DNA from: Sipunculus nudus
Lineage: Eukaryota; Annelida; Sipuncula; Golfingiida; Sipunculidae
Length of the DNA stretch: 64,000 nucleotides
Direction: 5' to 3'
Assembly: GCA_026874595.1 (NCBI GenBank)
Contig: CM049317.1
Location: 10,512,382-10,576,381 of the forward strand
The position numbers and the translations under genes were made by a program. Below, one piece after another: positions 4,343 through 62,420 of the stretch. The notes beneath the pieces were generated by a model, which saw only the letters and a list, made by a program, of their open reading frames with translations, searched no databases and had not been told where the DNA came from. Every line of letters begins with the position of its first letter. Position 1 is the first letter of the stretch.

Positions 4343-4405
<63 letters not shown>

Positions 4406-26641: not shown

Positions 26642-29600
26642 TTAAAACCTTTGTATGTATGTACTCACAGCTTCACACAGGGACTGTCCAAACCACCAGT
26701 CCTGTACGTCATCAAATTTGTATCCCTCGTCCTTCCAAAGCTGAATGACAGTTCCGCTTGGCGGGGTTTCCTTTCCAGCGTCACCGAAGTCCTTCTTAGG
26801 CTCACCAGGAGCCCAGTTTGTCCATTCCACCGCTTTGTTGTTCGTCCTCCAGTACCACCGACTACCGTCAGAGGCGCCACTGGTCAACAGATCGCCAGCA
26901 TCTGTAATTGACCAATCAGACAGATTAGTTTCCTATCGGATCACTGCGTTTACTGCAGTCGGCTTATGCCGCCGAGCTTGCAATGCTAACTCATTTATCC
27001 GTATTATTTTTTATATCTTGCTTAAAAATAAAATTGGTGATTATACAAACATTCATATATGCATCTTAGTTTGTTTTATCTATGATTTATCAGCTATAAT
27101 CTGTTCCACGGTGGGGTGGCCATTGAAAATTGGCGATTATTCTCTTTAACTTAAATAGTATCACACAATTGACAGTTAAGATGATAAGGTGTTCAAATGC
27201 CTAATATGAGATGTAAACCACCTAACAAAACCCAGCATAAATATTCTGTAACCTTTTGATTCTGTTTAATATTTAAGCCAAGTGACATGGCCTCTGTCAT
27301 GGGTTAATAGCCTCACCTCGACAATTACACTTTTTAGAATATTTATGACATTCAACCACCAATCAGTAGCTTTTAAATGTAGTTGTTTAAGCACGTGACA
27401 ACCAATCAGTAGCTTTTAAATGTAGTTGTTTAAGCACGTGACCAGTGACCTTGGCCTCAATCAGACTGGTTGAGATGTTGTAAAAAATATATAATATATA
27501 AAATATTTTCATATATTGATTTTAATGAATTACTAAATTTTTTACAAGGTATGGTTTACTTTCATTTTAGTTAATTAGACCTATGCATTATTCCTCTTTC
27601 CAGTCCATCTTGAGTCCATTATAAGGAAAGCTTTGTCACAAGCTAAACAAACTATAAAGTTAATTATAAAGTATTAACAGAATATTACAAAAAAAGACTC
27701 TAAATATATCCAAGTTTTAGCTCTGCATTGGGAGCTGAATGTAGTAAAAACATGCGAAAACTTACCATAACTGTGAGATAATGATTAGTATTTTTATGAT
27801 AATTCTTTTTAGTAAGGAGATTTTATTTGACTAGGACAAGGACTCGGTTGCCAGAGGACTCGGACTCTAAGACGGTCGATTAGAACTCAAACCTCAAGGA
27901 CTCCGGCTTTCACTTGGACTCGTACTCGGACAGTGTGGACTTGACAACATCACTGATATATGATCAGTTTAACTTCGACCATTTTGGTGACTTCTGGATT
28001 CGTCCTTGGAATACTATGAATGATGAAAGAATGGAACCTTGCTAAAAAAAATCGGCCGAGTCTTTTCGGTTCGGTAATTACATTGACCGATTTCAATTTT
28101 TCCCGCTGGGCCAGAAATTATTTTGACATATCCAAAGATTTTTGCAGCTAATGATTTTGCCGATTTTTTTAACGGCAGATTGAAAACGGGTAAATTGATA
28201 AGTGACCCACAGGCGATGAAGCTCAGTTATTCTTACCGGTCTGTGTTTTCAACCAATTGTAGATGTGAAGTCGCTCGTTCTCGTTCTCCACTCTCGCGAG
28301 ATAAGCTCCCTTCTTGTTGCACTCTGCCATGGCGGTTGTCTGGTTGTAATAATCCGCGATGAAATAGTAACACTTGGAGCCCAACACTTCCCAACTAGGA
28401 TCTGGGCAGGTAATGGCTTAAAAAAAGTATAAATCGTCTGAAACTTCAAAGGAAAGTAAACCTCTATGCAATTTATTCATAGGCTTTCCTCAGAGTGTGA
28501 CCAAGGGCGGGCAGAGAAAATTAGAAGGGGGGGGGGGGGGGAGATCATATAGCGAGGCCCCGAAGAGCCAAGAGGATGTCGCCAATATTCCCCGATACGC
28601 CATAAGCATGGTGCAGAAATTGTTTAAGATTTTTACTGTAAACTTGCAATATGGGATATTATTTTAAATTAAGCTTGTCCTGTATATTAATTGTAAAGAT
28701 TTTTACAAGCATATTAAATAATTCATACAATAAAGGAAATACATGCACTCTGTGTACTTTACTGTATGGTGAGATCGCGAAAATCGATCCCTCGCGAAAC
28801 ACTGATAAAAAATGGAAATCGCGAATGTTAAGACTATAATAAAATAAGATACCCACCTTGATCACACCTTGCTCCTTTGAAACCATCCGCACAACCATTT
28901 GAGCATGCGCCGTCCTCGTGATTACAAGTTCCACCCACGCAGTTTGAGTTACAGTTACTGTTACAATTGTCACCCCACTTGCCACTGGGACATTCTGTAT
29001 AATTAAGTACATGTGCAAATAAGTCACGTGACTAAGTTTTATTAAGGGACAAAAGACATGTCAGCATTGTTGCCTAAAATAAAGTGCTTCGATTTCGTTT
29101 TAAAAAAGATTTTGAATCATATAAAACTAGAGTCAATAATAGGAATATATACTTAAATTTATTTTTATTAATTTTTATTGCATTATCTTTTATTTTTATT
29201 GATATGAAATACAATAAATAAAAGAAAACCCTAAATATATATTATAATATTGCGCGGGTAACAAAATGAGTTCTATCTGTAGCCTGAATTTACGAAGTGG
29301 TTATCCATATAAAACAAATATCATTTTCACACCGGCTCAACCACTACCCTAATAGTACTCAGTTAAGGCGGTAGGCGGCAGAGGTGTAGTTATACGCTTT
29401 GAACAATACCAACAAACACACACATGTTTGCGTGTGTATATTTCTTACTCACGTGTTTCACACGTATCGCCAGTGTAACCAGGGTTACATCCATTGTTAC
29501 ATTTTCCGTCGGCGCCGTTACATGTGCCGCTCTTGCAGTTGGTTGGACAGTTGCTGCCGCAGTTAGCGCCCCATTTTCCAGCAGCACAAGCTAAAAGCAA

Positions 29601-32600
29601 ATAAACAGCAATACCATATTAAAAAAAATCATCAGAAGTGTGACATAAATATAGGGACGGATCTCCAACTTTCTCCTAGCCACTCCGCTTTAAATTTTTT
29701 AAAAGTACACCTTTATTTACGATATTAGCCAGGCCTGAGTTCAAAAGTTTGTATCCATTTGCATATGAAAATGTTGAATTTGCATTTAAATGTAGAGCTA
29801 CCAGAAAACATGCATTTTCATTAAAATACAGAGCTGAAAGCTTTAGATTTTTTAAATTTATATGTAATTCTATAGCACTGTTTAAGGAATCAAAAATGAA
29901 GAAAAAGGCCGCACCAGAAGTCTGATGTTCCGAGTAAAAGCTATACAAGTGGAATGAGCATGATGCCTGCGAAATAAAGTGTACGCAGAGTCTTAGCGCA
30001 TATATGTACGGAGTTGTTGCTTGATTAAGCAAGGTATCGGAAAGCGTAGCTGTCAGAACCTTGTTAATAAGAATATGGTCCAAAGTTACACAAACCAAGA
30101 AGATTACACACTGGAGAAACAACTGTCAGAAGCCTCGAGCGTGCGCTCATTGCAATTAAGACCTGATAGCCCCATTAACTCTATTGTGCGCCTATTGTGC
30201 CGCGGTGTCAGGCGCAGCGAGTCTGCTTGATGTTACTTACGGGGTCCGCTGTAGCTCGCTGAAGTGGAGAGCGATATATCCAGTAACTGAGCGGTAAATC
30301 ACTGGAATTACATTGACCAGAATTATGAAAGCGCAAATGGTTTGTTTTGTCAAAAATTATGAGTTACAAATACATCTAGAGAGGTCTCGTGTAGAGGAAT
30401 CACTGGATCGATTTTGGGATAGATGCGGTCACTCTGCATCAACTTCTGCCGTGATTCATGATGGACGACTGGTAAAAGTAAACCTTACTTTCCCTGAATA
30501 ACTTCGGAATAATAAAAATTTACATCAGTTCCCACACTTCTGACATATATCAATAATTAACCTTGTATTATAGTAAATATTTTGACGTTTATGAACGGAT
30601 AACTTTCATTTTGATAGATAGTGAGCCATCGCCCGCTCTGTCACTGATGGCGTTGTTCCTTATTATCGCCCATGTTTACCGCAGCCGGGAATAAACGAGT
30701 TGTTCCGAAGTCACGCCGAAGGGGGTCTCTCGCGCTGTATCAAATAGCGCCGGGCTTGTCAGCGGCATCTCTGGGTGCCTTTGAGCAGCCAGTTTTATGA
30801 CCCCCGTCAGCAACATTCGACACGGCCAGACTCTCACTTGATACTCCATTCTGTAATTTCCTTGCACAAGCCAATACATTCAAAGTTACACCTACGGGCA
30901 CATTTGGAGCCAGAGTAACCATCCAGGCATCCACTGGAGCACGTGCCGTCTACATGGTTACAGTTGGCTCCGCCGCCCGTGCAGCCACCACATGTACTGG
31001 CGCAGTCCTGGCCATATTTACCGTCAGCGCACTCTGGAGGCGACAAACAAAACCAAATATAAAACAGAATTTTTAGTATACATGTATATGCAAATTACAG
31101 TTAAAACTGGGAAAAAATAAACCTGTCAGGGTTGAATGAAGGCGCGGTCACGCCGACATGAAACGGTAACGTTTAGAGCACAATAGCTCTTTTTTTACCA
31201 CGTCACAATCCTCCAAATATGGTTAGATTATATATCATTATATTCAATATAATAAATTTTCAAAATATGAATAACATTTGTCCCTGTATTTGCACTCGAC
31301 ATCTTTTATCATACTTGCGTTTTATAATTGTTATTGGTATTTGCATTTACATCTTATTTATTTTAAACATTCACACGCGTTGAACCACATTTAAATCCAT
31401 CTTTGTTACACAGCATATAATATATAGTATCAAATTTTGTGATAGGATTGAAGTTTTGGAGAATAATTAGAAAATTCTATTGGCCAAGGCAGAGTACAAT
31501 AAACCACATACCGGTGTCACAGTTGGTGCCCTTGTAGCCTGGAGCACACTTGCCAGGACAAGCGCCGGTACTAATGTCACAGGAGGCGCCACTGGCGCAA
31601 TTCCCGCAGTTGTTGGCGCATCCAGCTCCCCATTTACCAGCAGGGCAGCTTGCAGCTTAAAAAAAATTAATAAATTATAATTTATTTCGGTATTCCTGAA
31701 TATAATATATCTTTATGGTTTTAATATAACGGTATAAGCCTATAAAATATAACATTACTGAAATTTTAACATCATTTTTACAATAATAGTGAAATCGCCG
31801 CATTTTTTTCCTCTCTGTGGAACTGATATGGCACTATTACACGAGCATGCGCACTGCGGGGAACTGTCGTCTGCTGTGTTTAAGTGTGCTGAGCCAGCAT
31901 TGCATGTTCATTTAATGAAACAAGATATACACCAGAGACTCTTGCAGGAATTTCACCAAGCTTTCTTTACTTTTATTATTAGATATAGAAAATTAATATT
32001 TTCTTTTGTGTAGATGCGTCTTACACTTAGTTTCAATTGTTGCCAAAAGATGTCGCTTTAGTGTTTTTGTGGTAAGAACGGTATAGAATAAGTAATATTT
32101 TGCAAGCATGAGCTTGGGAATGTAAACAGAAGGTGTTTCCTTGAAATGAAACACATTTTCATTTTAATGTTTGACACATAAGACAAGTAGTTCCGGCCGT
32201 CACACATTGCCAAAACAGTTTTTTTTAAAGTAGAAACGACCTCTGGCGGAAGGGTGGAGAAAAGGATTATTGGAAACATAAGTTTTGTATTACCGGCTTT
32301 TACTACAGGTACCATGGGAAATACTCAGCATAGGTAAACAAGAATGATAAATTTGTATATGTCATATCTGAGATAATACAAAAATTGATTACTGTCGCAT
32401 TTGTCTCCTGAGAAGGTTCCGGTGCAACCACCAGGCGGACAGAGGCCATCGATTGGGCTACAATCACCCCCTGCGCATGCGCCGCAGGTCTGGCTACATC
32501 CGACGCCCCATGTTCCACCAGGGCAAACTAAAAATTAAAAAATATGAACAGGATGTAAAATTTTGAAATTCTCAATATGAACAAACTGCACAATCTATAG

Positions 32601-35600
32601 ACTATCAATTTCAACATACTGCGCAATATATGAATTATTAATTTGAACAGACTGCACAATCTGAATATTATCCATTTGTGGAAACTGCACAATCCGAAGA
32701 TTATCCATATGAACAGGCTGCACAATCTTAAGATTATAGATATTAACAGGCTGCATAGTCTACAGATTTTCAAAGTGAACAAGCAGTACATTTAAGATTA
32801 TCAATAATATTTAAAATGAATAATGTGAGACAAGAGTTGTATACATGCTGGTTCAGAAAAATAAGAAAATGAAGGTAGCTAGGTGTATCGATCTTGTATC
32901 TGGCCCCATCAAGGATATATTGTTTCCATCCGTGAGCTTGTTTATATGTTGTCTTTTTGTCTGTTTGACTACCAGCAGGATTACGCAAACAATATGGAAC
33001 CGAAAAGCTTCTGATTTTGGCGTGGATCCGCATATAAGGTGGGGGGGGGGGGGGGTGAATTACTGATGTATTGGTTTGGCGGTGGAAAAAACTCACTGTC
33101 CTTCCTGTTACAAACATTTTCATTTCTTTTATACTTGAATGAAATTAATTGAATGGATCTGGTAAATATACATTCTTTTAGTCGCCCGAAGGTAAATATG
33201 AAAATTAGGGATCATCACATTTTATGGATTAAGTTTACCTAAGAGGTTTTTGTCTGACACCAGATCAGAGTTTGAAGTTTGTGTCAAAAATTTTGATATT
33301 TATGGCTTTACCGCAAGATTTATCTGATCTATACAAATCTGACTTTAAACTACTACCGCAACAAGGCAGCATACGCGACGTGGTTCTCTGAGGGACAATA
33401 TTTAAATAGTTCATACTCGTCGTGTTTTCAGTCATTTAACAGCCACGTCAATAAAGGCATGTAATTATATTTTATAATACACATTTCAGGTATTATACAT
33501 ATTTCTTAAAGGTAACTCAAACCGTGTGGCTCATTTCAAACTTACATTGGTCACATTTGCTGCCTGTGTAACCGGCTTTGCACCCTCCGGCAGGACACTC
33601 GCCATTCGTGTTTGCGCATGCGCCTCCAGCACATTCTCCACAAGTCTGGGAGCAACCATCGCCATATTTTCCGGCGGCGCAGGCTGTAATCACAGACAGA
33701 CATTCATATTCATCAAACGTATACATTTTTTTACTTCAGATAGGTAACTTTTCACACTGCTGGTATTTTTTATAATTGTCCAATACCACTGTTGTAAACT
33801 TTATTTATTTTTTATATATTAAAAGGTAGCTCCTCCTTCACCCCTTATTTTTCATAAGGAAATTCTGGAGCACCTGGGATTGGTACCTAGAAATCCTTCC
33901 TTATATAGCTTTACTGAGGAGAAAACTATTTATAGCTTCCATTGTATAATATATATAAATATATATATATAATATACACACACTTTTTTATTAGTATGTG
34001 TAAAATCGAGGAAGACAATGTAAAAGCCGAATCGTTGAAATCTTAGCTGGATAATAAAATATTTCATAATATACTAAACAATTAACAGCAGGTTCTCTTA
34101 GCATAATGTTTTTTCAAGTATACTATAAGGCTAAGCATTTTGGTGTGCATGTATATTTTTCTTGTCAATTTTTTTTATTTTATAGAAAAAGTATATTATA
34201 ATGGTAATGCTCTTGTCAATAATTATCGTGATTTAACCAGCGCTCATACGCCACAGCAAGGAGTTTACAACTCCTTGGTCATAGTTACCTGTTTTGCAGG
34301 TGCTTCCTGTATAACCGGCTTCGCAACCAGCTGGACAGGCTCCGTTTGTGGTGGAACATGCAGCTCCGCTCTTGCAGTTTCCACAGGTGCTGGAGCAGTC
34401 AGCTCCGTAAGTACCAGCAGAACAGGCTGTTTACGTCAATAAAATATCATCAGTGACGTCATAATACATAGAATATTACGGGATCTCGAAATATTTCAAT
34501 ATCTCGAACTATTATTTCTAATATTAGTAACAAATATTTCGAGATATTTCGAAATCGATAATTCGATACACAAAAAAAATTCTATATCCTTATCAAGCCA
34601 CCGTGAATAAACGTAATTGAATCTAATAGTAAGTCATAGATCTTTTGCTGTGTACTTTTCAATTGTGCATACCTCTGCAATTATAAAAATGCTTTCCAAA
34701 AATACTTCGCCTATGGATACATTAATTCCCTACAGTTTCTAGATAATGTTTTCATAATAGAAGCGAACGGTATAATAAATTAATAAAAAAAACGAACAAA
34801 ATATATATTCCTGACATGTACCATGTCATTCCAAATAATTATTTTCCCATGGACTCTTATATTCAACTCAACGGAATATAGATAGCAATAAAACAAAATT
34901 GCGACATATATAGTTATACTTAATACTTGTTTACGACACTGACCTGTGGTACACTGAGACCCGGAGAACCCTGCAGCACAACCGGATGGACAGTTTCCGG
35001 TAGATACATCACAGGCAGCTCCGCTTTTACAGTTTCCACAAGTGCTGGCGCAGCCAACTCCCCAGGTACCAGCAGTACAGCCTGAAATAAAAAGCTGCTA
35101 TGTGTAAAAGTGTATGTACAAAGGAAAGTGACCATTAAATATAAAATGCTGAAGATATACTGTCAAATCTATATAAACAGCCAAGTTATGTATGAGAATT
35201 ATTACAGAAAATTATATAATGTTTGCAAAGTCATACTAGGTCCGATTTTTTAAAAGTATGAACTTTATATGTGTAATTGTTGAAAATCAGTTATTACTCA
35301 TATTCATAAAAAGAATATTTTTTTCCGAGTACATGTATGTGATGGGAACAAAAGTTTCAACTTTAAAACTGCATACATCCATATATAATTTATTACAATT
35401 CAACATTTCCCATTGACATCAGCACTAATTGAGGCCAAATGCACGTTTAAAATCTTACCTGTATCACACTTGGTCCCTGTATAGCCGGCTTGGCATCCTC
35501 CCGCTGGACATACTCCGTTTGTGGCACTGCAGGCACCGCCAGCACACTTGCCGCACGCGCTTGCGCAGTTAGCTCCATAGAAACCAGAAGAACAAGCTGA

Positions 35601-37716: not shown

Positions 37717-37764
<48 letters not shown>

Positions 37765-52700: not shown

Positions 52701-55700
52701 AGTCCAGGCTACTCGTATCCTAGTCCAAGTCCGAGATCAGGCTACTCGTATCCTAGTCCAAGTCCGAGTCCGGCTACTCGTATCCTAGTTCAAGTCCGAG
52801 ATCAGGCTACTCGTATCCTAGTCCAAGTCCGAGATCAGGCTACTCGTATCCTAGTCCAAGTCCGAGTCCAGGCTACTCGTATCCTAGTCCAAGTCCGAGT
52901 CCAGGCTACTCGTATCCTAGTCCAAGTCCGAGATCAGGCTACTCGTATCCTAGTCCAAGTCCGAGATCAGGCTACTCGTATCCTAGTCCAAGTCCGAGAT
53001 CAGGCTACTCGTATCCTAGTCCAAGTCCGAGTCCAGGCTACTCGTATCCTAGTCCAAGTCCGAGTCCAGGCTACTCGTATCCTAGTCCAAGTCCGAGTCC
53101 AGGCTACTCGTATCCTAGTCCAAGTCCGAGTCCAGGCTACTCGTATCCTAGTCCAGGTCCGAGATCAGGCTACTCGTATCCTAGTCCAAGTCCGAGATCA
53201 GGCTACTCGTATCCTAGTCCAAGTCCGAGATCAGGCTACTATTATCCTAGTCCGATTCCTTGAGCTTCCAGTCCGAGTCCACCTTCATCGAGTCCAAGTA
53301 ATCCGGAAGCCAGAATTTTGAATGCAAATTTAAAATTACCATAATTATTTCTATGTTAGTTTGTACATGCATTTACTTGTGTGTTTAGCTACGTTTATCT
53401 CCCGATACGGAGCTGAAGCTTCGCATTTAATTTTTTTTCATTTGTAATATTCAGTCAAGAGTTCGCACAGGTAAATAAATGTCCTAATACCATATGCCAG
53501 AAATTTCCTTCAACCGGACTCGAGATGCACTCGGCCTGATTTCTCAAATCCTTTCCTCTGCGTCTGAGTTCAGGTCCCAGTCCATAACCCCAGAGTCCAA
53601 GTCCGAGTCCCCAAAAAAAGTGGACTCGTGTCCCGACTCGGGTCATAGTCCTGACTCGAGCCCATCATCACTGGTATGATAAAGTTTAAAAGCACACATG
53701 AGTGTTAGGCGGTATATGTAAGTGTTCTTGTTTGTGTGTGTGTACGTGTGTACGCACCTGTCTGACAGGATGTTCCAGAGTATCCAGGAGCGCACGTGTT
53801 GCCTGGACACGCTCCCGTGGTTGAGTCACAGGCGGCACCGTCAGCGCAGTGACATTTAGACAGACAACTGCTTCCGTAAGTACCGGCAGAGCAACCTGAA
53901 ACGTGAAAGGAAAAATGAAAAGCATTCAAAATACTGGCGACATTATATTATAAACTTATTTATTTTACATGGATTGTACAAATAGCTATTATAACTAATC
54001 TTCGCACTCTCCATGGCTCCGATGATGGCGTTCGGTAGTCTACGGGTGGAGGAACCCGGAGAAAACCTATGGCCGTGAGGGCAACTACAACCCACTCCCA
54101 TAGCCACACCGGGGATCGAACCCGGGTCGCCAGCGGAGGGAGCCGAGCGTTTTACCCCTCGGCTATCCGTTGCCTCGACAAGGAAATACATGCACATCAC
54201 ACAGTCATATTTCAAGTTTATAAAACGAATAATCTGCTTTATCTTAACAATACTCATGTTAGTTGAATTTCACGTAGGACCCTCTGAATTTCGTTGGTGA
54301 AGCCTTCCAATTCCCGTGGTAATCCCTATATATTAAATGCTTGAGTGTCGGCATTTTTTTATTTCAGGTAGGATTTTTAACGAGAAAACACCAATATATC
54401 TCTAATCTGTCATGGAAGGAAAGCATCCGAAATTGTAAAATTAAACATACCATAGTGAATTGACAGGAAACATTAAGCTGCATTTAATTTGCCATATAAC
54501 ATCATGACTGTCTGTAATTAAGTACTTTTCTTACCTCCTGTACAGAATGGATAGCTGTATCCTGGTTTACATCCTCCTGTACAATATCCGTTCATCTTGT
54601 TGCATGGAGACTGGTTCAGACAGTTTCCGCACTTATTGGCACATCCCATACCCCAAAGACCGTCAGCGCAGGCTGAAGAAAGAGGCAAGGGTTCCACTGA
54701 TAATCTAAACCAATTTTTGGATGGTACTCTGTATGCGTGAGGATGAAGATATTCATTATAATTCATATTTATTTATAATTTTCATTTAAAAAATAATACG
54801 CTAGGATATCCTATACTCAGTCGATGTCATAATTGTTAACAGGATCTGGGTCGAGGTGTGTATTGTTAAGACAATTGGCTTCTCTATGCTCGGGGTAGGA
54901 ATCATTTAGGCATTACTCTAGAATCTCTTATGGTCAATAGAGATTTGACCATTTTTCCTTTGAGGCTGAGACGGAGATCGGACCCTGACCCTTGCGCCTT
55001 GAAGTCAAATGTCTTTACTACTGAGCTTTAGAATCCAGAAGTTTTCTTACTTTTGTCAGATAAGCATTACTCACATGCTTTTTAATGTACTAAAGTGTAA
55101 AGTTTAGGCCCTGGGCCTACGGACAGATTTGACATGAAAAAAGTCATTAAGAGACTTGTACCAAGCAGAAATATGCTTCATTGAACTCCCTGACATTACG
55201 ATAGTGAATGTAACAATGTCCACTAAATAGTAATATGTCAAAACTTATTGGCCATGGTGCATTATGACTGATTTCCTCAATCCATCTAAGTAAGCCCGTT
55301 CATAGTAATAAACGGTTCGTTTATAGACTTTTGTTTTTTTTTTACATTTAGGAACAATGAACAGAATAATACATTATGGTCGCAAGTGGATATTGAACGT
55401 TCCTTTTCATTAAGTCGACTGGGAGAGTGTTTTAAAAAGATATAATAGTGAGGATGAACATTCACTTAATATCGTGGCCTGATCTACAAGCTGATGTAAC
55501 AGTTGACAGCGTTGATATCCACCAAAGTTTTCCTATATTCACCATTTAAATGTTGAGATTTCTCTACAACACAGAAGCCGCTATACTTACTGATGCCGAG
55601 GAACCCGTCGACCTCCACCTCACACATGGTCAGGTACTCCGCCCTGTCGTTGATCTGGATGCTGAGGTAACGACCTACGAGGACCTCGGAACAGGAGATG

Positions 55701-55839
55701 TTCAGGTACTCCCCGTTACCCGCCTGCTCCGTGTAGGTGGCGCACAGCGCGTTGTTCTGGAAGGTCTTGTTGTTACCGACACGCACGTCAAAGTTGTTCA
55801 GACGCTCTGGCACACCGGGCCCTAGATCAAAATGATATG

Positions 55840-55890
<51 letters not shown>

Positions 55891-56046: not shown

Positions 56047-56108
<62 letters not shown>

Positions 56109-58180
56109 TGTTGTACTGTATATTCTGTGTATATACTGTATATAATAATTATGCATGGAATCACTGAAAAGACATGTCATGGTATAACACAGGATACACG
56201 CTTATTTATTTAAATAAATATCTCAGGATTAACTATACCACTTCGTAAATTGGCGAAAAGATACGTTGAAAATGTAATGTTAAAAACACTTGAGAACTTT
56301 GAAAAAGATGGGATAATTGATATGGGACGAGAGATGAGTAATCAGTAGAGATAATTAAAGAATCGTCATGGTAACATACATGCAGAGGCTCTGTTCTGGA
56401 TGTGGACGGTACCGATGGCTGCGGGTATCCCGATGTCCACGTACCACCACGCCCTGTCGTCCTGGTTGGTATGAGAACACGAATGTCTCCAGAAGCTGGT
56501 GTCTCGGTTACCGTCGATGGCTCTGTTAGCCACGGCGTTTGAATAGTTACTGGACTGGTACGCCTGCTTGCCCAGCAACACGTTGCCTTTATTATAAAAA
56601 AAATCAATCTTTGTATTTTTGATATAAATTGTAATGGTATCAAAAAAAGACATATTCCACTCCAGATAGCGACACCTATCGGCAGTTTCACACAGTTTTG
56701 GGACGGGTGCACAGATAATGAAGCATCGTATATAGTCATATCTCCAGATCTTAAAGTGAAAACTGACCTTGTCTTTAACAGTAAGTTTCTTTTTCATAAC
56801 ATGTCAGGTTATTTTTCATGATGTTTGCACATACTTAAGGTGCTTTTCCATATGTGCGTAGTCCGTATCCGTAGTTTGTATCCGTAGTCCGCATGCGTAG
56901 TCCGCGAAAATCGCTTTGTAGACTTTTCAACTAGGCCGTTTCCATTCATCCGCATACGTAATCCGTATGTGTAGTCCGAATGAGCACGCTGCCCGGAGCG
57001 ATTTTTGCGCACTACGCATACCAATCATCGTGTCGATTTCGTGTCGATTTCCAACTGGTCATTTCCGGGCATAAGTCTTTTGGAAACCAAACATACTGGC
57101 ATTTTGTTGAATTTTGTTTTCCTTTTTTTCGCACACAATATGTTTTCTGGATGATTGAAGCGTAAACATCACTGCCGCGTATGAAATATTACTAATTATG
57201 ATCTTTTAAAAATTTTATTATTTCAGTTTCATTATTTCAACTTTTGATGCTTATATATACAAGTGTACAATAAATATGTGGTGAAATGGCTTGCAAAAAG
57301 AAAAACTTCAGCTGTAGAACCCCTATCAATACAAAGTACGGACTACTCATATACGTACATATGGAAAACGAACTTTGCGGATACAGACTACGCATACGGA
57401 CTACGCATGCGGACTACGGATACGGACTACGCATTTATGGAAAACCACCTTTATACTCACTGCGCATGCTCGTGGCTAAGGTGCATTTGATAGGGATTTT
57501 TTTTCAATCTCTTATTGTGTCGCTCTTATAGTAGTTTCTGTATAAGCCCTTGTAGGCTCTTCCTGAATATTTTTTTTTATCACGAAAGAGATTCAGAATT
57601 AGAAGTTACTTTTTTTTTTAGCTAAAGCGAATATCTGTTCATTCGATTTGCTGCCAACAGAAAAACGGGTTATTTTATTATTATTCTCAGGCCCAACTTT
57701 AAAGAAAGACTTTAAAACGCAATATATTTGCAATAAGTGAAACGAAGAAAGGACATTTGTACTGAATGCATTATACATTTTTCACATGATTTAATCCTGT
57801 AAGCCAGAGTGTAAACTTGATTATTCTAAGAGAATATCATGAACATTGTTCCAGAAAAGGTAACAGAATAACGTAATTTTTCATTTATCATGGCCATCTT
57901 AATTCTGCATATATAGCGGGAATCAAAACGTAAGTCTTGGAGCTTACTTGAAGATATTTTCCCTGCAATGTATTAAACATAATACAACAGACCTCACTAT
58001 GTTAGAATAATCCTCCAGTCTTCAGACCGTACTTAAAGCGTTACTGTCATCTAAAATTAAGTTGTATCTAATAATGACTTAGGAGAATTCATGAGAAACG
58101 TCATACAACGAAAGACACATCTTGCGACACTAGCATTTATTAACATATCGATTAGATAAACATCGTATAAATATCACATG

Positions 58181-58229
<49 letters not shown>

Positions 58230-58242
58230 TAATTACAACAAC

Positions 58243-58286
<44 letters not shown>

Positions 58287-61200
58287 GTATATTATTATTA
58301 TTATTATTATTGACTGAAGACTAAACTATTTTCAGTCTTACCATCCTGACAGTCGGCTCCCGTCCAGCCATCCACACAGCCGGACATGCACTTGCCGTTG
58401 ACGTTACAGTCTTCCTCCGCGTTAACGCAGTGACACTCCCAGGCGCAGTTAGGTCCAAACTTACCCACTGGGCAAACTGAAAGCGGAAATATTCTGTATT
58501 TATCCACATGTTAACTACAGTACTAAGGTTGCTACTGTTAATGGGTATTTGTATTTGAAAACAGAGAGGACACTGCTTCTTAAGGTCTCTGCAATGAAGT
58601 GGCTGAACCCTGTTTTTGGCGAAATTTGCAGGTTACGACATGAAAGTATGGTAACCCATATAGCACTAAATATATATTTGTGCATTCCATGCCAAGTCTA
58701 TATAGCATCACTTTATAACGACAGTTTAGAGACTTTTAATGACATTTTCCAAGAGACCTAAGCTACGCCAAAAGCCTCTTTGTCACAGTCTAAAATTTCT
58801 GTATGATAAATAAGCTTAGCTAGAACATGAAATATGTGTGCAGTATAGTCTCAAATTAAGCCCATACGTACAAAGAACATCTGTTTGTAACTAACGTTAA
58901 GCGTACTCATGGAAATATATACAAGAAACAACATATTTTTTCCCACATATGATATATGCGCTTGATAAAATTTCGGTTAGTCTTTGATGAAGAGAAGTGG
59001 CGTCCTTTGGTGGAGATTAACATCAACACGGAAATAGCTAATGTGATTTGAATCACGTGTCCACGATACTTACCAGCTTTGGCGTAACCACGGATCATGA
59101 CCTCACACATGGTGAGGTATGTCTGCATGCCGACCAGCTGGACAGACACGTAGCGGCCTTTCAGTGGCTTGTTCTTGCAGTCGAAGATCGCCTTCTCTCC
59201 AGCGCCCACGGCCTCTTCGCGGTACGCACACTCTGCGTTCTGAGTGTAGTCCTCATTATCGCCCACACGCACCATGACTTTGGCAAGACGATCGGCTGAA
59301 ATAAATTTTGGTAAGTCGGTTGTTGCACATACGGAAGGAAAACAGAACGTATCGAATATATATATTTTTTATTTTAACCCATATATCAAATGTTTTACAT
59401 TCTAAAGTAGAAAATAGGTGTGAAATAAGTGGTGAGTATTCCTGCTTCTTAATAAATAAATAAAAAAAAATCACAAGCCACATTATCTAAAGAGGTGTAT
59501 TACATTACATGAGTGTTTAACTACACAAAAAGAATTTACTCTTACATGTTTCTCGGTTGTGATGACATGCAAAAATTCGCTTTTTTCCATTTCATTTCAA
59601 TGTTACGGTGGCATCCAAAAGAGTTGAATGAAATTACAGAGAAATTCAGACTGATAGTAAAGGTCAAAGTCACCACGCATCGCTAAAAACATGCCTCCGA
59701 CTTTTCTCCATTTCTAGTTTGACGCTCCTATCCTAATAATTACTAAAATTGTTGTATAACAGCATACGGCGAGAAATAATTGATTAATTAATAAAACGTA
59801 AAATAAAACAAACAAGAAAAATGTAAATGAAAACAGAAGACAAACAGAATAAATAACAAAGATTTCCCATCGGCATATTGACCATCTGCTTTTCAAGGTG
59901 GCATGAATTTGTTCAAACAAATCGACCAATCATGGAAACATCAATTATCTGATTGCTTCAAATGATATTATGTGTTGAATCGTATCTTTAAGACAGGATT
60001 ACGCAAAACTAGAAAAAAAAAGCATAATGAGGGGTCAGTGCAGACCCATATTTAATTTCTGCAGTTGAATATTTTGCATTGGCCGAGGTATGCGCTCCAC
60101 TGGATGCCTCTCTATTCATAATCAGGGAAATCAGAAACCTCCCCGCAAGAATCAAGAAACATAAACTTAAGACTGATACTTACGGTACAGAACTCTGTTG
60201 AGGATTCTGATGTCATAGATGATGTACTCATCTCCCAAGTCAACCTTCCACCAGGGGTCGCTGGCGAGGTCGGCGTGGGCGCAGTCTCCTTTGAAGATCT
60301 CCGTCCCCTCGTCGCCGACCAGAGCGTTGTTGGCGGAGAACAAGGCCTCGCTGTTCCACAGTGTACTGACCTGTGTGGCGTTCTTTCCCTGACCGATATT
60401 ACCTAGAATATTTTAAAACTAATTTAAGTAATAAATTCCTTGAACTTTAAATTTTGCATCATTTCTAGGTAACAGATGTTCCAGTTGCCTTTGTGTTACG
60501 ACTAATATTCCTTTAAAATTGATGTCAATATAAAAGCTATTGTAATATCCATTTGTTATTTCATTCATCTCTGTAGCAGCTTCATTAGAAACCCTCATAA
60601 TAACGACTGAACTAATATACTTTTTTTAAAGGAAGCACATCCGGACCAAAAATTAAAAATGAATATATTTCGCCCTTGAAATACTTACAAAACTTTTTTG
60701 AATGTCTTTCGGTTTCTTAACTAGAGCAAATCAAGTAAACAATCGAAACAACTGAGACAACCTTGAAATTTTACGTTACTAACCAACAGCGCATCCGGGT
60801 CCTATCCATCCGAGGGCACATCCGCTGGTACAGGAACCGGAAGTCTTGTCACAAACCTCGCTGGTTTCCTTACAGTGACAGTCATAACGACAGCTCTCTC
60901 CGAACTTCCCGTCCACACAAGACTCTGCAACGATGTATGTATCTGTATGTTTTGGGTATAACCGACTCAGTGGATGCTTTTATTTTCATATAGCACAAAG
61001 GTGAAAGAGTACAACATACTTCGTGGTACAGCCCTGAAACATCAAGTTCTAAATGAAATTTATCTTTGGTTGCTTATCCCAATAGAATTTTAGATAAACA
61101 TGCACTAAACTAAATGTTTTAAAAAATGGACAAGACTGGTGTAGTATGATTCTAGTTTTGTATAGCTCAGGACTGATACTTAAGTCCTCTGATAAATCAG

Positions 61201-61657
61201 GGTACGAAACTGACACAACAGGTGCCTGTATACAAGTAAACCTATAATATGTATTATGTACTTTTATAACTACATAATAATTTTGTGTTTCCACTCACAA
61301 ATCGTATTCTCATAATTTTACATATACAAAAATATTAAAAAGTTATAAAATAATGACAATTGGGCACTAACGCGTTTAATTTTTTTAAAAATCTGATCAC
61401 TCAGAAAATCTAAGTAAATATGTCTAATATTTGAACAATTTAAAATAAAATGTATGATGCACAGCACTTTGTGCTTTTGCTCGGATATGACATAAAAATA
61501 CCGTAAAGACTTGAATAATAACATAGAGACTGTAAAAGATAACGTAAAGACTTAAAAAGATATCGTTAAGAATTAAAAGATACCGTAAAGACTTACGAGC
61601 GGCTGCTCTTTGCCTGAGCAGGACGTAAGCCAGTAGCAGAGCTATAGCTAACCGCAT
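26642..61657 (-). CDS. Secreted multi-EGF, F-type and C-type lectin-domain protein (36 coding exons plus 5'UTR exon)
   Basis: Order from the N-terminus: signal peptide; 8-Cys EGF-like; FTP/F-type lectin domain (2 exons); EGF-like; second FTP domain (2 exons); 30 consecutive 8-Cys EGF-like modules, one per exon; C-type lectin-like domain (2 exons). Joined exons give 1,921 codons through the last CTLD exon, or 1,929 residues if the frame reads on to the TAA at 26642. All junctions are phase 1 up to the CTLD and no internal stop occurs. The EGF modules (CxxGxxGxxC...CGxC...C...GxC...GC.xGYxGxxC) are of the Draper/CED-1/MEGF10/SREC type. No membrane segment was seen, so I infer a secreted recognition or adhesion protein. 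I know no gene with this architecture; partial resemblance is to MEGF6/10/11 and fucolectin-domain proteins. Confidence 0.85.
26669..26901 (-). CDS. C-type lectin-like domain, second half
   Basis: RWYWRTNNKAVEWTNWAPGE, PKKD, VIQLWKDEGYKFDD and WWFGQSLCEA. The last core Cys (LCEA) is present, but the loop Cys pair and WND are absent, and the EPN-type motif reads EPK. A donor-like GCT|GTGAGT follows. Either a short final exon lies downstream, or the frame runs on eight codons to TAA at 26642-26644. Confidence 0.85.
27358..27441. repeat. Perfect ~41-bp tandem duplication
   Basis: CACCAATCAGTAGCTTTTAA through GTTTAAGCACGTGAC occurs twice back to back, each with a CCAAT box (AACCAATCAG) and a CACGTG E-box, inside the CTLD intron. 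Confidence 0.9.
27835..27945. repeat. Degenerate ACTCGGACT-type repeat
   Basis: Recurring GGACTCGG, GACTCGGACTC and TTGGACTCGTACTCGGAC resemble, in reverse orientation, the AGTCCAAGTCCGAGT core of the satellite at 51.7-53.2 kb. In the CTLD intron. Confidence 0.4.
28237..28416 (-). CDS. C-type lectin-like domain, first half
   Basis: 180 nt. ITCPDPSWEVLGSKCYYFIA and MAECNKKGAYLARVENE, the long-form CTLD start with an extra N-terminal Cys pair and the first core Cys (AEC). Acceptor TTTAAG|, donor ACCG|GTAAGA. Confidence 0.88.
28857..28994 (-). CDS. EGF-like module 32 (last EGF)
   Basis: 138 nt. CPSGKWGDNCNSNCNSNCVG and GACSNGCADGFKGARC. Sister to module 31; joins the C-type lectin-like domain in phase 1. 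Confidence 0.88.
29453..29590 (-). CDS. EGF-like module 31
   Basis: 138 nt. CAAGKWGANCGSNCPTNCKS and GKCNNGCNPGYTGDTC, with NCPTNC in place of CGNC, shared with module 32. Confidence 0.88.
29600..30890. other. Intron with unexplained GC-richer blocks
   Basis: Between EGF modules 30 and 31. The part at 30050-30500 and 30640-30880 is clearly less AT-rich than its surroundings and looks like inserted sequence, but shows no coding similarity or terminal repeats I can recognise. The 148-codon open frame at 29676-30122 (minus) has low-complexity, intron-like composition. Confidence 0.3.
30896..31033 (-). CDS. EGF-like module 30
   Basis: 138 nt. CADGKYGQDCASTCGGCTGG, NCNHVDGTCSSGCLDGYSG, SKC; donor C|GTAGGT. 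The open frame runs past the donor but the phase fits this site. Confidence 0.87.
31512..31655 (-). CDS. EGF-like module 29
   Basis: 144 nt, the longest EGF exon. Acceptor TTTAAG| adds two residues before SCPAGKWGAGCANNCGNCAS and GACPGKCAPGYKGTNC. Confidence 0.87.
32060..32300 (-). repeat. Dispersed repeat family B copy
   Basis: AGAAACGACCTCTGGCGG (32231-32248) is the reverse complement of 12880-12897. Surrounding sequence is only weakly similar. Confidence 0.35.
32393..32527 (-). CDS. EGF-like module 28
   Basis: 135 nt. CPGGTWGVGCSQTCGACAGG and GLCPPGGCTGTFSGDKCD; donor A|GTAATC. Confidence 0.88.
32574..32790. repeat. ~37-bp minisatellite, about six units
   Basis: Units around ATGAACAGGCTGCACAATCT and AAGATTATC repeat with 36-39 bp spacing in an EGF-gene intron. 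Confidence 0.8.
33546..33683 (-). CDS. EGF-like module 27
   Basis: 138 nt. CAAGKYGDGCSQTCGECAGG and CPAGGCKAGYTGSKCDQ; type C-like, after the cassette array. Donor T|GTAAGT. Confidence 0.9.
34033..34230 (+). repeat. Intronic inverted duplication, arm 1
   Basis: TTAGCTGGATAATAAAATAT and TAGAAAAAGTATATTATAAT plus GGTAATGCTCTTG match, in reverse orientation, 37808-37965. Probably two copies of one element in opposite orientation. Confidence 0.6.
34289..34426 (-). CDS. EGF-like module 26 (cassette 3, type A position)
   Basis: 138 nt. CSAGTYGADCSSTCGNCKSG and TNGACPAGCEAGYTGSTC. More diverged than the other type A exons. Confidence 0.9.
34944..35081 (-). CDS. EGF-like module 25 (cassette 3, type B position, B/E hybrid)
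   Basis: 138 nt. Starts like type B (CTAGTWGVGCASTCGNC) but continues like type E (KSGAAC, TGNCPSGC), suggesting recombination or gene conversion between exons. Confidence 0.9.
35459..35596 (-). CDS. EGF-like module 24 (cassette 3, type C)
   Basis: 138 nt. CSSGFYGANCASACGKCAGG and CPAGGCQAGYTGTKCDTG. Confidence 0.92.
36149..36286 (-). CDS. EGF-like module 23 (cassette 3, type D; GC splice donor)
   Basis: 138 nt. CSAGFWGDNCGSACGQCAAG and CNVVDGSCPAGGCLAGFSG. Donor is ACAG|GCAAGT. Confidence 0.9.
37478..37615 (-). CDS. EGF-like module 22 (cassette 3, type E)
   Basis: 138 nt. CSAGTWGAGCVNTCGNCKNG and GNCPAGCAAGYTGVQC; only a few residues differ from module 17. Confidence 0.92.
37719..37782. 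repeat. (TA)n(TG)n compound microsatellite
   Basis: About 21 AT units followed by about 10 GT units, in the intron just upstream of EGF module 22. Confidence 0.95.
37808..37965 (-). repeat. Intronic inverted duplication, arm 2
   Basis: Reverse-complement partner of 34033-34230 (CAAAAGCATTACCATTATTA, ATACTTTTTCTATA, AATATTTTATTATCCAGCTAA), about 170 bp with internal indels. Confidence 0.6.
38369..38506 (-). CDS. EGF-like module 21 (cassette 2, type A)
   Basis: 138 nt. CSAGFYGVNCASTCGNCKNG and GACPSGCADGFSGSTC. Confidence 0.92.
38908..39045 (-). CDS. EGF-like module 20 (cassette 2, type B; GC splice donor)
   Basis: 138 nt. CTAGTWGFGCASTCGSCAGG and GQCTGGCAAGFTGVLC. Donor is ACAG|GCAAGT, the standard GC-AG consensus. 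Confidence 0.9.
40009..40146 (-). CDS. EGF-like module 19 (cassette 2, type C)
   Basis: 138 nt. CSSGFYGANCASPCGQCAGG and CPAGGCLAGYIGTKCDTG. Nearest relative is module 24. Confidence 0.92.
40783..40920 (-). CDS. EGF-like module 18 (cassette 2, type D)
   Basis: 138 nt. CSAGFWGESCASACGQCASG and CNIVDGSCPGGVCLAGFTG. Nearest relative is module 23. Confidence 0.92.
41586..41723 (-). CDS. EGF-like module 17 (cassette 2, type E)
   Basis: 138 nt. CSAGTWGAGCVNTCGNCKSG and GNCPAGCAPGYTGVQC. Nearly identical to module 22. Confidence 0.92.
42618..42755 (-). CDS. EGF-like module 16 (cassette 1, type A)
   Basis: 138 nt. CSAGFYGVNCVNRCGNCKNG and GACPSGCADGYFGPTC. Type A mark is FYGVNC and GCADG. Confidence 0.9.
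43228..43365 (-). CDS. EGF-like module 15 (cassette 1, type B)
   Basis: 138 nt. CTGGTWGVGCASTCGNCAHG and GICTGGCSAGYSGALCTTG. Type B mark is TTDGxCTGGC. Confidence 0.9.
43952..44089 (-). CDS. EGF-like module 14 (cassette 1, type C)
   Basis: 138 nt. CTSGFYGSNCASACGKCAGG, CSATTGTCPAGGCLAGYTG, SKCDTG. Type C mark is SGFYG...KCAGGACSA and CDTG. Confidence 0.9.
45022..45159 (-). CDS. EGF-like module 13 (cassette 1, type D)
   Basis: 138 nt. CSAGLYGDNCASTCGNCLSG, CNIVTGSCAGGLCQAGFSG. The CNIV and GGxC spacing mark type D. Confidence 0.9.
45565..45699 (-). CDS. EGF-like module 12 (cassette 1, type E)
   Basis: 135 nt. CTAGTWGVGCSNVCGNCKGA and GTCPSGCNPGYTGTAC. First exon of the first five-exon cassette; one codon shorter than the other E copies. 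Confidence 0.9.
46297..46434 (-). CDS. EGF-like module 11
   Basis: 138 nt. CQTGFWGSGCSSACGKCAGG and GACPSGCQAGYTGSTC, ending LQG. Confidence 0.9.
46679..46816 (-). CDS. EGF-like module 10 (GC splice donor)
   Basis: 138 nt. CVGGTWGIGCASTCGFCNGG and GSCPGGCAPGYSGATC, subtype B-like. The phase-consistent donor is ACAG|GCGAGT, a GC donor. The nearest GT would break the frame. Confidence 0.88.
47530..47667 (-). CDS. EGF-like module 9
   Basis: 138 nt. CSFGTWGTGCASKCGSCAGG and GSCTGGCAAGYTGSLC; related to subtype B (GTWGxGCAS, TDGxCTGGC). Confidence 0.9.
47925..48148. mobile_element. Small MITE-like element with TAGTCGCCAG ends
   Basis: Bounded by TAGTCGCCAG on the left and CTGGCGACTA on the right, with an inner (ACAA)n run. 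The right end is itself a perfect hairpin (TATAGTCGCCAG, short loop, CTGGCGACTATA). About 225 bp, no coding capacity. Confidence 0.6.
48660..48797 (-). CDS. EGF-like module 8
   Basis: 138 nt. CLSGTWGQNCGFQCGKCESG and GACPAGCQAGYQGTYC; donor C|GTGAGT. Not predicted as a long ORF but splice sites and 8 Cys are intact. Confidence 0.88.
49659..49796 (-). CDS. EGF-like module 7
   Basis: 138 nt. CSAGFWGVGCSQTCGKCAGG and GSCLTGCAAGYRGFQC, ending LQS as module 11 ends LQG. Confidence 0.9.
49945..50276 (+). mobile_element. Possible diverged MITE family A copy
   Basis: CAGCAAAACTATCCCGGCAC matches the CAGCAAAACTCTCCAAGCAC block of the full copy at 21.6 kb, and the segment ends in TAGGTCCCTTTAA, like the family's right terminus. 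The left end is unclear. Confidence 0.45.
50805..50939 (-). CDS. EGF-like module 6
   Basis: 135 nt. CPVGFYGAGCTKTCGKCRSG and GLCKDGCLNGYSGTYC. A partial duplicate of this exon's 5' end and acceptor lies just upstream (50960-51010). Confidence 0.9.
50960..51010 (-). pseudogene. Partial duplicate of EGF exon 6 start
   Basis: On the minus strand TTTCCAG|CCTGTCCTGCTGG is followed by TTTTACATCGCTGGTTGCAT (CPAGFYIAGC), copying the acceptor and the first ~35 nt of the exon at 50805-50939, then diverging. No donor follows. Confidence 0.7.
51335..51469 (-). CDS. EGF-like module 5
   Basis: 135 nt. CAAGTFGAGCTFTCKCADGA and SCPGGCAAGFSGTNC, 8 Cys, CKC spacing. Confidence 0.9.
51731..53250. repeat. 33-bp satellite array, about 46 copies
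   Basis: The unit contains CCTAGTCCAAGTCCGAG, then ATCAGG or TCCAGG, then CTACTCGTAT (33 bp). A 32-bp variant (GAGTCCGGCTACTCG) recurs, usually followed by TAGTTCAAG. Variant order shows internal higher-order repeats. It lies in one intron of the EGF-lectin gene. The 32-bp variants break any long reading frame, so the Tyr-Pro-Ser-rich frames are not genes. Confidence 0.95.
53250..53680. repeat. Degenerate flank of the 33-bp satellite
   Basis: Scattered AGTCCGAGTCC, GAGTCCAAGT and CCGACTCGGG blocks continue past the array with much divergence. Confidence 0.5.
53758..53895 (-). CDS. EGF-like module 4
   Basis: 138 nt. CSAGTYGSSCLSKCHCADGA and GACPGNTCAPGYSGTSC. CHC spacing like modules 1, 2 and 5. 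The next intron holds the 33-bp satellite. Confidence 0.88.
54008..54180 (-). mobile_element. tRNA-derived SINE
   Basis: On the minus strand TAGCCGAGGGG fits the pol III A box and GGGTTCGATCCCCGG the B box about 40 nt later. A body with GTGGCTATGGGAGTGGG and CTCCGGGTTCCTCCACCC follows. A SINE, not a tRNA gene, because the tRNA part runs directly into unrelated body sequence. Confidence 0.7.
54535..54672 (-). CDS. EGF-like module 3
   Basis: 138 nt, phase 1-1. CADGLWGMGCANKCGNCLN through GYCTGGCKPGYSYPFC, 8 Cys. First of the uninterrupted 30-exon EGF run. Confidence 0.88.
54955..55036 (-). mobile_element. tRNA-derived SINE head, second family
   Basis: On the minus strand AAGCTCAGTAGTAAAGACAT, then GGGTCCGATCTCC, approximate A and B boxes at tRNA spacing. 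Confidence 0.45.
55591..55821 (-). CDS. F-type lectin (FTP) domain 2, second half
   Basis: 231 nt. PERLNNFDVRVGNNKTFQNN, ALCATYTEQ, LNISCSEVLVGRYLSIQI and YLTMCEVEVDGFLG. The intron splits both FTP domains at the same point and phase. Confidence 0.92.
55844..55887. repeat. (GA)n microsatellite
   Basis: About 22 GA dinucleotides, starting about 23 bp upstream of the exon for the second half of FTP domain 2, within that exon's polypyrimidine region on the sense (minus) strand. Confidence 0.95.
56050..56107. repeat. (TA)n microsatellite
   Basis: About 28 AT dinucleotides in the FTP2 intron. Confidence 0.95.
56380..56586 (-). CDS. F-type lectin (FTP) domain 2, first half
   Basis: 207 nt. NVLLGKQAYQSSNYSNAVAN, RAIDGNRDTSFWRHSCSHT and WWYVDIGIPAAIGTVHIQNR: the canonical FTP start with RAIDGN and WWxVDI. 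H-x26-R is kept but the RxD Asp is Ser (RAS). Confidence 0.92.
56837..57452. mobile_element. Foldback/MITE element with GTAGTCCG subterminal repeats
   Basis: Ends AAGGTGCTTTTCCATATGTG and its inverted partner (ATTTATGGAAAACCACCTTT on the right), each followed inward by tandem GTAGTCCGTATCCGTAGTCC and GCATGCGTAGTCCG blocks. About 615 bp with no transposase. In the intron between EGF module 2 and FTP2. Confidence 0.75.
58191..58310. repeat. (TAA)n ... (TTA)n inverted trinucleotide pair
   Basis: About 12 TAA/AAT units (58191-58228) face about 22 TTA/ATT units (58243-58310) across a short spacer, so one strand can form a long AU/AT hairpin. Lies about 30 bp 3' of EGF module 2's donor. Confidence 0.9.
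58342..58476 (-). CDS. EGF-like module 2 (between the FTP domains)
   Basis: 135 nt, phase 1-1. VCPVGKFGPNCAWECHCVNA through GKCMSGCVDGWTGADC, 8 Cys. Most similar to EGF module 1, suggesting an EGF-FTP block was duplicated. Confidence 0.88.
59074..59295 (-). CDS. F-type lectin (FTP) domain 1, second half
   Basis: 222 nt. DRLAKVMVRVGDNEDYTQNA, ECAYREEAV, FDCKNKPLKGRYVSVQL and YLTMCEVMIRGYAK are typical of the second half of FTP domains, including the conserved GRYV and TxCEV motifs. Confidence 0.9.
60184..60402 (-). CDS. F-type lectin (FTP) domain 1, first half
   Basis: 219 nt. NIGQGKNATQVSTLWNSEA start, FKGDCAHAD, then DPWWKVDLGDEYIIYDIRIL and NR. His and Arg are spaced H-x26-R as in the F-type lectin motif HX26RXDX4(R/K), but the Asp of RxD is replaced (RVL). 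Confidence 0.9.
60784..60924 (-). CDS. EGF-like module 1
   Basis: 141 nt, phase 1-1. SCVDGKFGESCRYDCHCKE through SGSCTSGCALGWIGPGC, 8 Cys. It has CHC instead of the CGNC form of the later array. Confidence 0.88.
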
Positions 61658-61670
61658 CTCTCAAGTGGTC
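61597..61670 (-). CDS. EGF-lectin gene exon 2: short 5'UTR and signal peptide
   Basis: Acceptor TTTCAG| at 61670, ATG at 61655-61657, donor CTC|GTAAGT. Encodes MRLAIALLLAYVLLRQRAAA, a signal peptide with a hydrophobic core and AAA before the likely cleavage, then Gln-Ser-Cys of the first EGF module across the junction. Confidence 0.85.
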
Positions 61671-62271
61671 CTGAAATATATATATATATTGTCAAAAATG
61701 AGATCGTATTGAATAAAATATATATTCTATATATTCAAATATTAAAATACTGAAGCAGTACAAAAGTATTCAAATACCATTTTTTTGCAAATCGCAAGTT
61801 ATATATATAGTGTTAAGGAATGTGAATTGCTAACGGTCTCCGATTCAATTCGGTCATCGATAATTGCCTTTCGATTTGATTCTCCATTCAATAAGATATT
61901 CCTTTGGAGAATCCATTTAATAAAACGTTATTTCCAAGAAGATACTTAGATAATCATTATAACATACCTAAACATTAAATAAACCGAATAATATTTAAAT
62001 CATCTCATCTTTTTTTTGTGATTTCTAATGAAGGATATAGATACAATTGTAAGGAGACTTTTCAGCGAATGACGAAAATTCGAATATATAATTTTTTGTA
62101 TTTTTATTATAATAATAATTTCAATGCAAATAATGAAATAACAGCTCTCTGTCACCAACATTCAAAGATAATCATAAATATTGTTAAGTAATATTAGCTT
62201 GGTTATAATTCATTCGAATAAATGGAAGCATCGACTAGAAAATTAACATTATCTTTACTGTAGTGACTCAC

Positions 62272-62380
62272 CTCTTTTTCTTCCTCCCTTCTGCAAGATG
62301 ATAAGTTTTTTTCCTTTGACCACTTACAATAAACAGCCAAACAAGCCGAGCTCTCTGATATTAAGAGGATTTCTGAAATC
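62272..62380 (-). other. Probable 5'UTR exon 1 of the EGF-lectin gene
   Basis: A strong donor GAG|GTGAGT ends at 62272, and the TATA box predicts a start near 62380. The next acceptor, TTTCAG|GACCACTTGAGAG, lies 13 bp before the ATG at 61657. The exon has no useful ATG frame. The 5' end is inferred. Confidence 0.55.
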
Positions 62381-62403
62381 AAGGAAACGTTTGTCGGAAA
62401 CCG

Positions 62404-62412
62404 CCTTTTATA
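62404..62412 (-). promoter_or_regulatory. TATA box of the EGF-lectin gene
   Basis: On the minus strand AAGTATAAAAGGCGG is a near-perfect TATA box. Transcription would begin about 30 bp downstream (near 62380), about 110 bp before the splice donor of the 5'UTR exon. Confidence 0.65.
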
Positions 62413-62420
62413 CTTCCCTA

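Follow-up and report, generated by a model that had tools for sequence, protein, structure and literature searches.

A 64,000-nucleotide stretch of the Sipunculus nudus genome (assembly GCA_026874595.1, contig CM049317.1, positions 10,512,382 to 10,576,381; the window, in whose numbering positions are given unless stated otherwise) was analysed for a large minus-strand gene predicted to encode two F-type lectin (FTP) domains, a long series of EGF modules and a C-type lectin-like domain (CTLD). The gene model comprises 39 exons between 61657 and 26642, separated by 38 introns that are all in phase 1 and span 244-2288 bp, and was shown to join into 1,929 residues without internal stops. The deduced domain order is signal peptide-EGF-FTP-EGF-FTP-30 EGF-CTLD, representing a predicted protein with 268 cysteines, a mass of ~191 kDa and a pI of 5.2. 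A first-pass annotation, made from the DNA letters by themselves, had listed the same EGF, FTP and CTLD content in the same order, counted 32 EGF modules and read them as one continuous frame, all of which was confirmed, and its stop position at 26642 proved exact.

The signal peptide (MRLAIALLLAYVLLRQRAAA) is encoded by an exon at 61597..61657, with its ATG at 61657 and a phase-1 donor, which was the only exon within 60925-64000 to satisfy the signal-peptide criteria; a similar signal-peptide exon is present in the paralogue described below. The start at 62420 given by the first-pass annotation was rejected, as no signal-peptide exon was seen there. An acceptor lies immediately 5' of the exon at 61657, and a 5' untranslated exon is therefore implied. 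The remaining exons of the head encode EGF1 (60784..60924), FTP1 (60184..60402 and 59074..59295), EGF2 (58342..58476, defined by the splice-site model) and FTP2 (56380..56586 and 55591..55821), the FTP exons being supported by Pfam and homology matches. These are followed by an array of 30 EGF exons (EGF3 to EGF32; 28857..54672), each of 135-144 nt and phase 1-1, and by two CTLD exons at 28237..28416 and 26642..26901, the latter including the stop codon. The intron between EGF4 and EGF5 contains a 33-bp minisatellite of ~46 copies (51732-53253), and the long plus-strand open frames that it yields most likely arise artefactually from the repeat length. Neither Rfam nor tRNA scanning gave a match anywhere in the window.

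The EGF exons were placed using a script restricted to phase-1 splice sites; the FTP, signal-peptide and CTLD exons of the window gene and all exons of the paralogue were placed by eye, with the frame kept. To be an artefact of that search was rejected as an explanation for the uniform phase, as phase-free rescoring with a generic consensus found the sites used to be best or tied-best in all 32 EGF exons: the donor was the single best in 31/32 and the acceptor in 30/32, and the remaining three sites were tied. Donors were GT in 35 of the 38 introns and GC in three (EGF10, EGF20 and EGF23).

Both FTP domains scored above the Pfam cut-offs (PF22633 and PF00754) and matched the fish F-lectin FBP32 (3e-38 for FTP2 and 8e-36 for FTP1) and the eel lectin AAA (1k12; 1e-15 and 2e-13, respectively). 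By this whole-domain homology to AAA and FBP32 over ~140 aa, both are F-type lectin domains (FTLDs), sharing 37% identity with one another. The basic His-Arg-Arg triad is kept in both (H-X26-R, then a second R), and both lack the acidic residue of RXD as well as the paired cysteines (CC). The spacing in the fucose motif is given as X24 in a review (PMC5712786), the available parts of which also describe FTLDs with deviating motifs, which may mean altered specificity or lost binding.

The EGF modules are encoded by 32 minus-strand open frames, one eight-cysteine module apiece, and the eight cysteines were invariant in 32/32. A strict eight-cysteine pattern was matched 23 times on the minus strand, and neither on the plus strand nor in 20 Markov sequences. 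The best matches of an EGF profile were the EGF-like protein 6u11 (6e-11), SCARF1 (3e-10) and Tie2 (2.5e-8), which supports placement of these modules, at the level of sequence, among the eight-cysteine EGFs of the SCARF/Tie2 kind. None of the 15 of 32 modules that were scanned exceeded the cut-off of a Pfam EGF family. The fold predicted for the EGF unit from the 32 window exons had a mean predicted local distance difference test (pLDDT) value of 86 and a predicted template modelling (pTM) score of 0.52.

C-type lectins that bind sugars in a calcium-dependent manner are recognized by EPN or QPD and WND motifs and by four canonical cysteines. The CTLD of the window gene is degenerate, with cysteines only at 4, 16, 33 and 136 and none of the EPN, QPD and WND motifs. 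In a phmmer comparison with the PDB, its best match was the CTLD of a type II antifreeze protein (1.9e-6), with clam codakine at 4e-6, and by such homology the domain belongs to the CTLDs. Since the EPN, QPD and WND motifs are missing and four cysteines are present, calcium-dependent sugar binding is predicted to be unlikely. A lost mini-exon bearing a WIGL motif between the two CTLD exons was considered and rejected, as the junction is identical in the paralogue (..|DAGDL), whose CTLD exceeds the Pfam cut-off.

A search of the genome (1.43 Gb) identified this paralogue on the same contig at contig positions 44043356-44072682. Its model consists of ten exons encoding 593 residues, with 9/9 introns in phase 1, and follows the order signal peptide-EGF-FTP-EGF-FTP-EGF-CTLD, with one stalk EGF compared with 30 in the window gene. 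Identities between the two genes were 22/46 (EGF1), 62/143 (FTP1), 20/45 (EGF2), 60/146 (FTP2) and 50/127 (CTLD); synonymous divergence (dS) lay between 1.3 and 2.6 in three of the six comparisons and was undefined in the remaining three; non-synonymous divergence (dN) was 0.50 to 0.64. The paralogue FTP domains scored 34.0 and 50.4 bits in Pfam (cut-off 27.8), and its CTLD scored 28.3 bits (cut-off 22.6) and matched codakine at 1.7e-8 over nearly the whole CTLD length. As tblastn matches for the first CTLD exon of the paralogue were false, this exon was located by reading open frames; matches of the joined CTLD in Pfam and the PDB then lent it support. The CTLD exon junction is identical in both genes, the second exon beginning at the same residues (DAGDL), and the paralogue stop lies two residues past the last CTLD cysteine, with an AATAAA ~90 bases further. 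Within the last intron of the paralogue, at 44064872-44071970, two occurrences of a repeat-rich stretch of ~3-5 kb were seen, together with a partial copy of the final CTLD exon at 44067708.

Comparison of the two genes indicates that stalk length has changed between the paralogues while both ends were kept. Nearest-neighbour identities showed that EGF13-17, EGF18-22 and EGF23-26 (34289..45159; the last block incomplete) are related in register, and the array thus appears from its sequence to have grown partly via duplication of five-exon blocks. EGF13-17 and EGF18-22 were 79% identical over 225 codons, with a dN of 0.137 and a dS of 1.59, and codon-position identities of 86% (first), 88% (second) and 49% (third); in comparisons of single EGF pairs dS was undefined in 1/8. 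The duplicated stalk blocks tested are under purifying selection. No same-strand match at E 0.001 was found between counterpart introns of the EGF13-17 and EGF18-22 blocks, and three inverted matches were observed between other introns.

When 35 EGFs were placed in an unrooted tree, most inner supports of which were modest and the sequences of which were short, EGF1 and EGF2 of both genes grouped together (support 0.97), the paralogue EGF1 pairing with the paralogue EGF2 (0.66) and not with its positional counterpart. The third EGF of the paralogue fell among the window array EGFs, adjoining EGF8 (0.94), and the array is therefore the likely counterpart, as judged from these sequences, of that single EGF. 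The opposite direction, namely loss of EGFs in the paralogue, is possible. A genome search with one EGF query, in which 150 of the 982 candidates received a score and counts are accordingly lower bounds, returned at least 33 matches: at least 19 in the window array, one in the paralogue and at least 13 elsewhere. Outside both genes, at most three of the scored matches lay within ~42 kb, and no comparable array of the same EGF subtype was found among them.

Other loci with related domains were also observed. Two further FTP loci, on contigs C4 and C6, were inspected over 50 kb each; both carry FTP exons, and the one on C4 a single EGF as well, with no convincing CTLD exon at either. Partial CTLD matches occur on contig C17. 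F-type lectin matches within single open frames were found at C16:1976673 (1,462 aa), C10:10502039 (1,347 aa) and C10:10511879 (1,197 aa), these being unlike the two-exon FTPs of the window gene. Furthermore, many Lectin_C matches with near-equal scores lie in open frames of ~360-380 aa scattered over many large contigs, sometimes two or three of them ~1.4 kb apart. Two such loci (C7:29982001-29992000 and C3:61482001-61492000) have similar sets of open frames, and among the five scanned in the former are two C-type lectin frames, a CARD frame and one for a MULE transposase with FLYWCH; judged by these contents, the scattered loci apparently represent a mobile element whose cargo comprises lectin and CARD sequences. 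The window itself additionally contains two head-to-head acyl-CoA dehydrogenase-like genes at 849-6475 (minus strand) and 9299-16665 (plus strand), between which three exon-like matches pair up across the two strands; the exon at 16357 on the plus strand matched a mitochondrial long-chain acyl-CoA dehydrogenase (8w0t) at 2e-32.

Taken together, the window gene is proposed, with a probability of roughly 0.5, to be one gene encoding a secreted protein of ~191 kDa with a glycan-binding head, an EGF rod and a terminal CTLD, acting as an extracellular cross-linker or as an adhesive or matrix fibre. The FTP head would bind fucosylated or other glycans, and the CTLD, lacking the calcium and sugar motifs, would contact proteins or other molecules. 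The stalk of 30 EGFs would set reach and strength by spacing the two ends and bearing load, such that the protein would cross-link extracellularly or form adhesive or matrix fibres. Several observations weigh against this proposal. The CTLD scored 19.0 bits in Pfam, below the cut-off of 22.6; the strict fucose motif H..R-X-D-X4-(R/K) fails in both FTPs, the D being replaced and the spacing different; and the cation motif h2-D-G-x, found as AIDGN in FTP2, is absent from FTP1. At the 3' end, a donor-like GTGAGT follows the last CTLD cysteine at 26668, a phase-0 open frame with a hydrophobic stretch lies downstream at 26238, and the first AATAAA past the stop is ~1.1 kb away, which also speaks against secretion. 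Finally, the adhesive or matrix role is inferred by analogy alone.

As every intron is in phase 1, any subset of exons could join in frame, and the frame by itself cannot prove a single gene, so that two or more neighbouring genes might have been united by an over-eager model. This is highly improbable in view of the paralogue, whose model holds the FTP head and the CTLD in one short exon run of the same order. Because the paralogue keeps the same order, phases, junction and terminal CTLD, the FTP head and the CTLD are assigned, on comparative grounds, to one gene plan with the CTLD as its C-terminus, and separate genes appear unlikely. In addition, the 38 introns contained no second signal-peptide-like exon by the criteria used and a single transmembrane-like match, a microsatellite, and at 244-2288 bp they offer little room for gene ends. 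The selection acting on the EGF13-17 and EGF18-22 exons bears on the same question, and of these lines of evidence the paralogue is the strongest. The claim of the first-pass annotation that a single gene is involved therefore stands. A slightly less remote alternative, though still an improbable one, is a membrane receptor of the Draper/MEGF or Uninflatable (Uif) kind, Uif being transmembrane (PMC3340373), in which case the model would have overlooked a transmembrane exon 3' of the CTLD. Both the GTGAGT at 26668 and the frame at 26238 would suit such a receptor. The former is weak, as 73/445 other in-exon GTs score equally high. With the acceptor threshold set at 0, 4 or 6, hydrophobic frames like the latter were reached by 11%, 3% or 2% of Markov sequences, respectively, and they arose in 7/24 minus-strand and 0/24 plus-strand pieces of the window. 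The codons of the frame at 26238 score as non-coding, on a measure that disfavours hydrophobic residues since its model is mostly EGF. No Pfam match above the cut-off was obtained for the 20 of 26 downstream minus-strand open frames of at least 50 aa that were scanned, three matches below it being at chance level. Given these 7/24 similar pieces, the non-coding codon score and the paralogue stop directly after the CTLD, followed by its AATAAA, a transmembrane C-terminus at 26238 was rejected. Since the paralogue stop follows the CTLD and the downstream hydrophobic frame is poorly supported, secretion, as the first-pass annotation had suggested, is the better reading of the sequence than membrane anchoring.

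With regard to function, the main rival is a soluble immune recognition protein, in which the FTP head would engage microbial glycans and the CTLD or stalk would engage haemocytes or complement-like partners. In the available parts of the review, F-type lectins are reported to act in immunity in pearl oyster and hypothesized to do so in Littorina (PMC5712786), and the short paralogue has the look of an ordinary lectin with several domains. Against this, the EGF rods with lectin ends that were found to come closest are structural or adhesive, and the immune role is considered possible yet clearly less probable than the proposed cross-linker or fibre. Rather more doubtful is a gamete-recognition or egg-coat protein, comparable to oyster bindin (an F-lectin) or to octovafibrin, an egg-case fibre with a lectin-EGF29-lectin plan (PMC10336842). 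The EGF blocks tested are under purifying selection, unlike the bindin FTLDs as described in the accessible text (PMC5712786), and that text reports no CTLD or EGF for bindin.

Within the proposed secreted protein, stalk length may tentatively be regarded as the evolvable part, a short SP-EGF-FTP-EGF-FTP-EGF-CTLD lectin (SP, signal peptide) having perhaps been extended by duplication of exon blocks into a 30-module rod; the result would be a fibre with a structural or adhesive role that resembles octovafibrin by convergence and is capped by an FTP head and, opposite to it, a CTLD. The two genes represent a matched pair within one genome, with the same lectin ends and a stalk of 1 or 30 EGFs, and thereby make it possible to test directly what a lectin gains from a long EGF rod in reach, avidity, strength or self-assembly, as has been asked of octovafibrin and other EGF-rich adhesives. 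Furthermore, exon-block duplication under purifying selection represents a route to protein lengthening.

The eight-cysteine EGF stalk itself recalls that of Draper, MEGF10 and SCARF (SCARF1 at 3e-10), from which the window EGFs differ by two or three extra residues between cysteines 6 and 7. An N-terminal EMI domain and a transmembrane tail define Draper and MEGF10. A Pfam scan of the N-terminus returned no EMI match, no supported transmembrane segment was found and the paralogue ends after its CTLD. The description of the stalk as Draper/MEGF-type in the first-pass annotation thus applies to the kind of EGF, and does not extend to a Draper/MEGF10 protein.

The first-pass annotation had also treated the combination of domains as standing alone, which was not upheld, as furrowed/CG9095, Uif and octovafibrin join comparable domains. 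According to the available text of the review, Drosophila furrowed/CG9095 carries an FTLD and a CTLD in one polypeptide, as do the window gene and its paralogue, and the CTLD of CG9095 likewise lacks canonical residues; where the window gene has an EGF stalk, furrowed/CG9095 has CCP modules and is predicted to contain a transmembrane segment (PMC5712786). No CCP was found in the scanned parts of the window gene (both FTPs, the CTLD and 15/32 EGFs) or in the paralogue, and no transmembrane segment follows the paralogue CTLD. Drosophila Uif is described as a single protein with 18 EGFs, two FA58C domains and a CLECT, and differs by its membrane anchor and by additional CUB, CCP and HYR domains (PMC3340373). 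The molluscan FTLDs of oyster bindin are likewise divided by a mid-domain intron, and bindin differs in having 1-5 FTLDs with no mention of an EGF or CTLD in the accessible part of that source (PMC5712786). Rotifer EGF-CTL lectins, also lophotrochozoan, place an EGF directly before the C-type carbohydrate-recognition domain, with a single EGF and without an FTP in the text available; this 2022 study called the EGF and CTL combination not previously described in Lophotrochozoa (PMC8878817). In a survey of Aplysia, which counts 5 F-type lectins, 146 CTLD proteins and 2 MEGF10 orthologues, the sections available make no mention of such a combination (PMC9334734).

Among adhesive materials, scallop byssus, limpet mucus and the footprints of sea stars are reported to contain EGF repeats, in some cases together with lectin-like domains (PMC7333891, PMC9382459, PMC13348336, PMC10057474). 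The limpet proteins P-vulgata_1 and P-vulgata_13 of gastropod mucus are predicted to be secreted and carry, besides their EGFs, a domain that is C-type-lectin-like or galactose-binding; they differ in having 6 and 5 EGFs, respectively, and no FTP-EGFn-CTLD plan as they are described, with additional vWFD, cystine-knot and Kazal domains in P-vulgata_1. The scallop byssal protein Sbp9 is likewise a giant secreted molluscan EGF array (49 EGFs, >200 kDa), its EGF alignment having six conserved cysteines, and the word 'lectin' is absent from the main text of its paper. The exact FTP2-EGF30-CTLD plan was not found in the open-access full-text literature, the scope of this search, to which subscription papers and protein databases did not belong.

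The nearest studied analogue is octovafibrin of octopus egg threads (Octopus bimaculoides, XP_014771937.1), which consists of a signal peptide, a CTLD, 29 EGFs and a second CTLD (PMC10336842). It is described in the available text as a load-bearing rod whose EGFs are not calcium-binding according to PROSITE, and its authors suggest that the molecules assemble end to end by means of their lectin ends (PMC10336842). The window gene resembles it in outline, as a predicted secreted protein with a lectin domain at both ends of ~30 tandem EGFs. The octovafibrin EGFs contain six cysteines (Cys 5, 10, 16, 25, 27 and 36), compared with eight in the window gene, and, as described, its N-terminal lectin is a CTLD in place of EGF-FTP-EGF-FTP. 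Because the EGF subtype and the N-terminal lectin differ, the window gene is not itself classed as an octovafibrin. The pairing of an FTLD with a CTLD, the union of EGF, CLECT and FA58C domains, and the lectin-EGFn-lectin plan are thus each already known, and the combination found in the window gene extends these.

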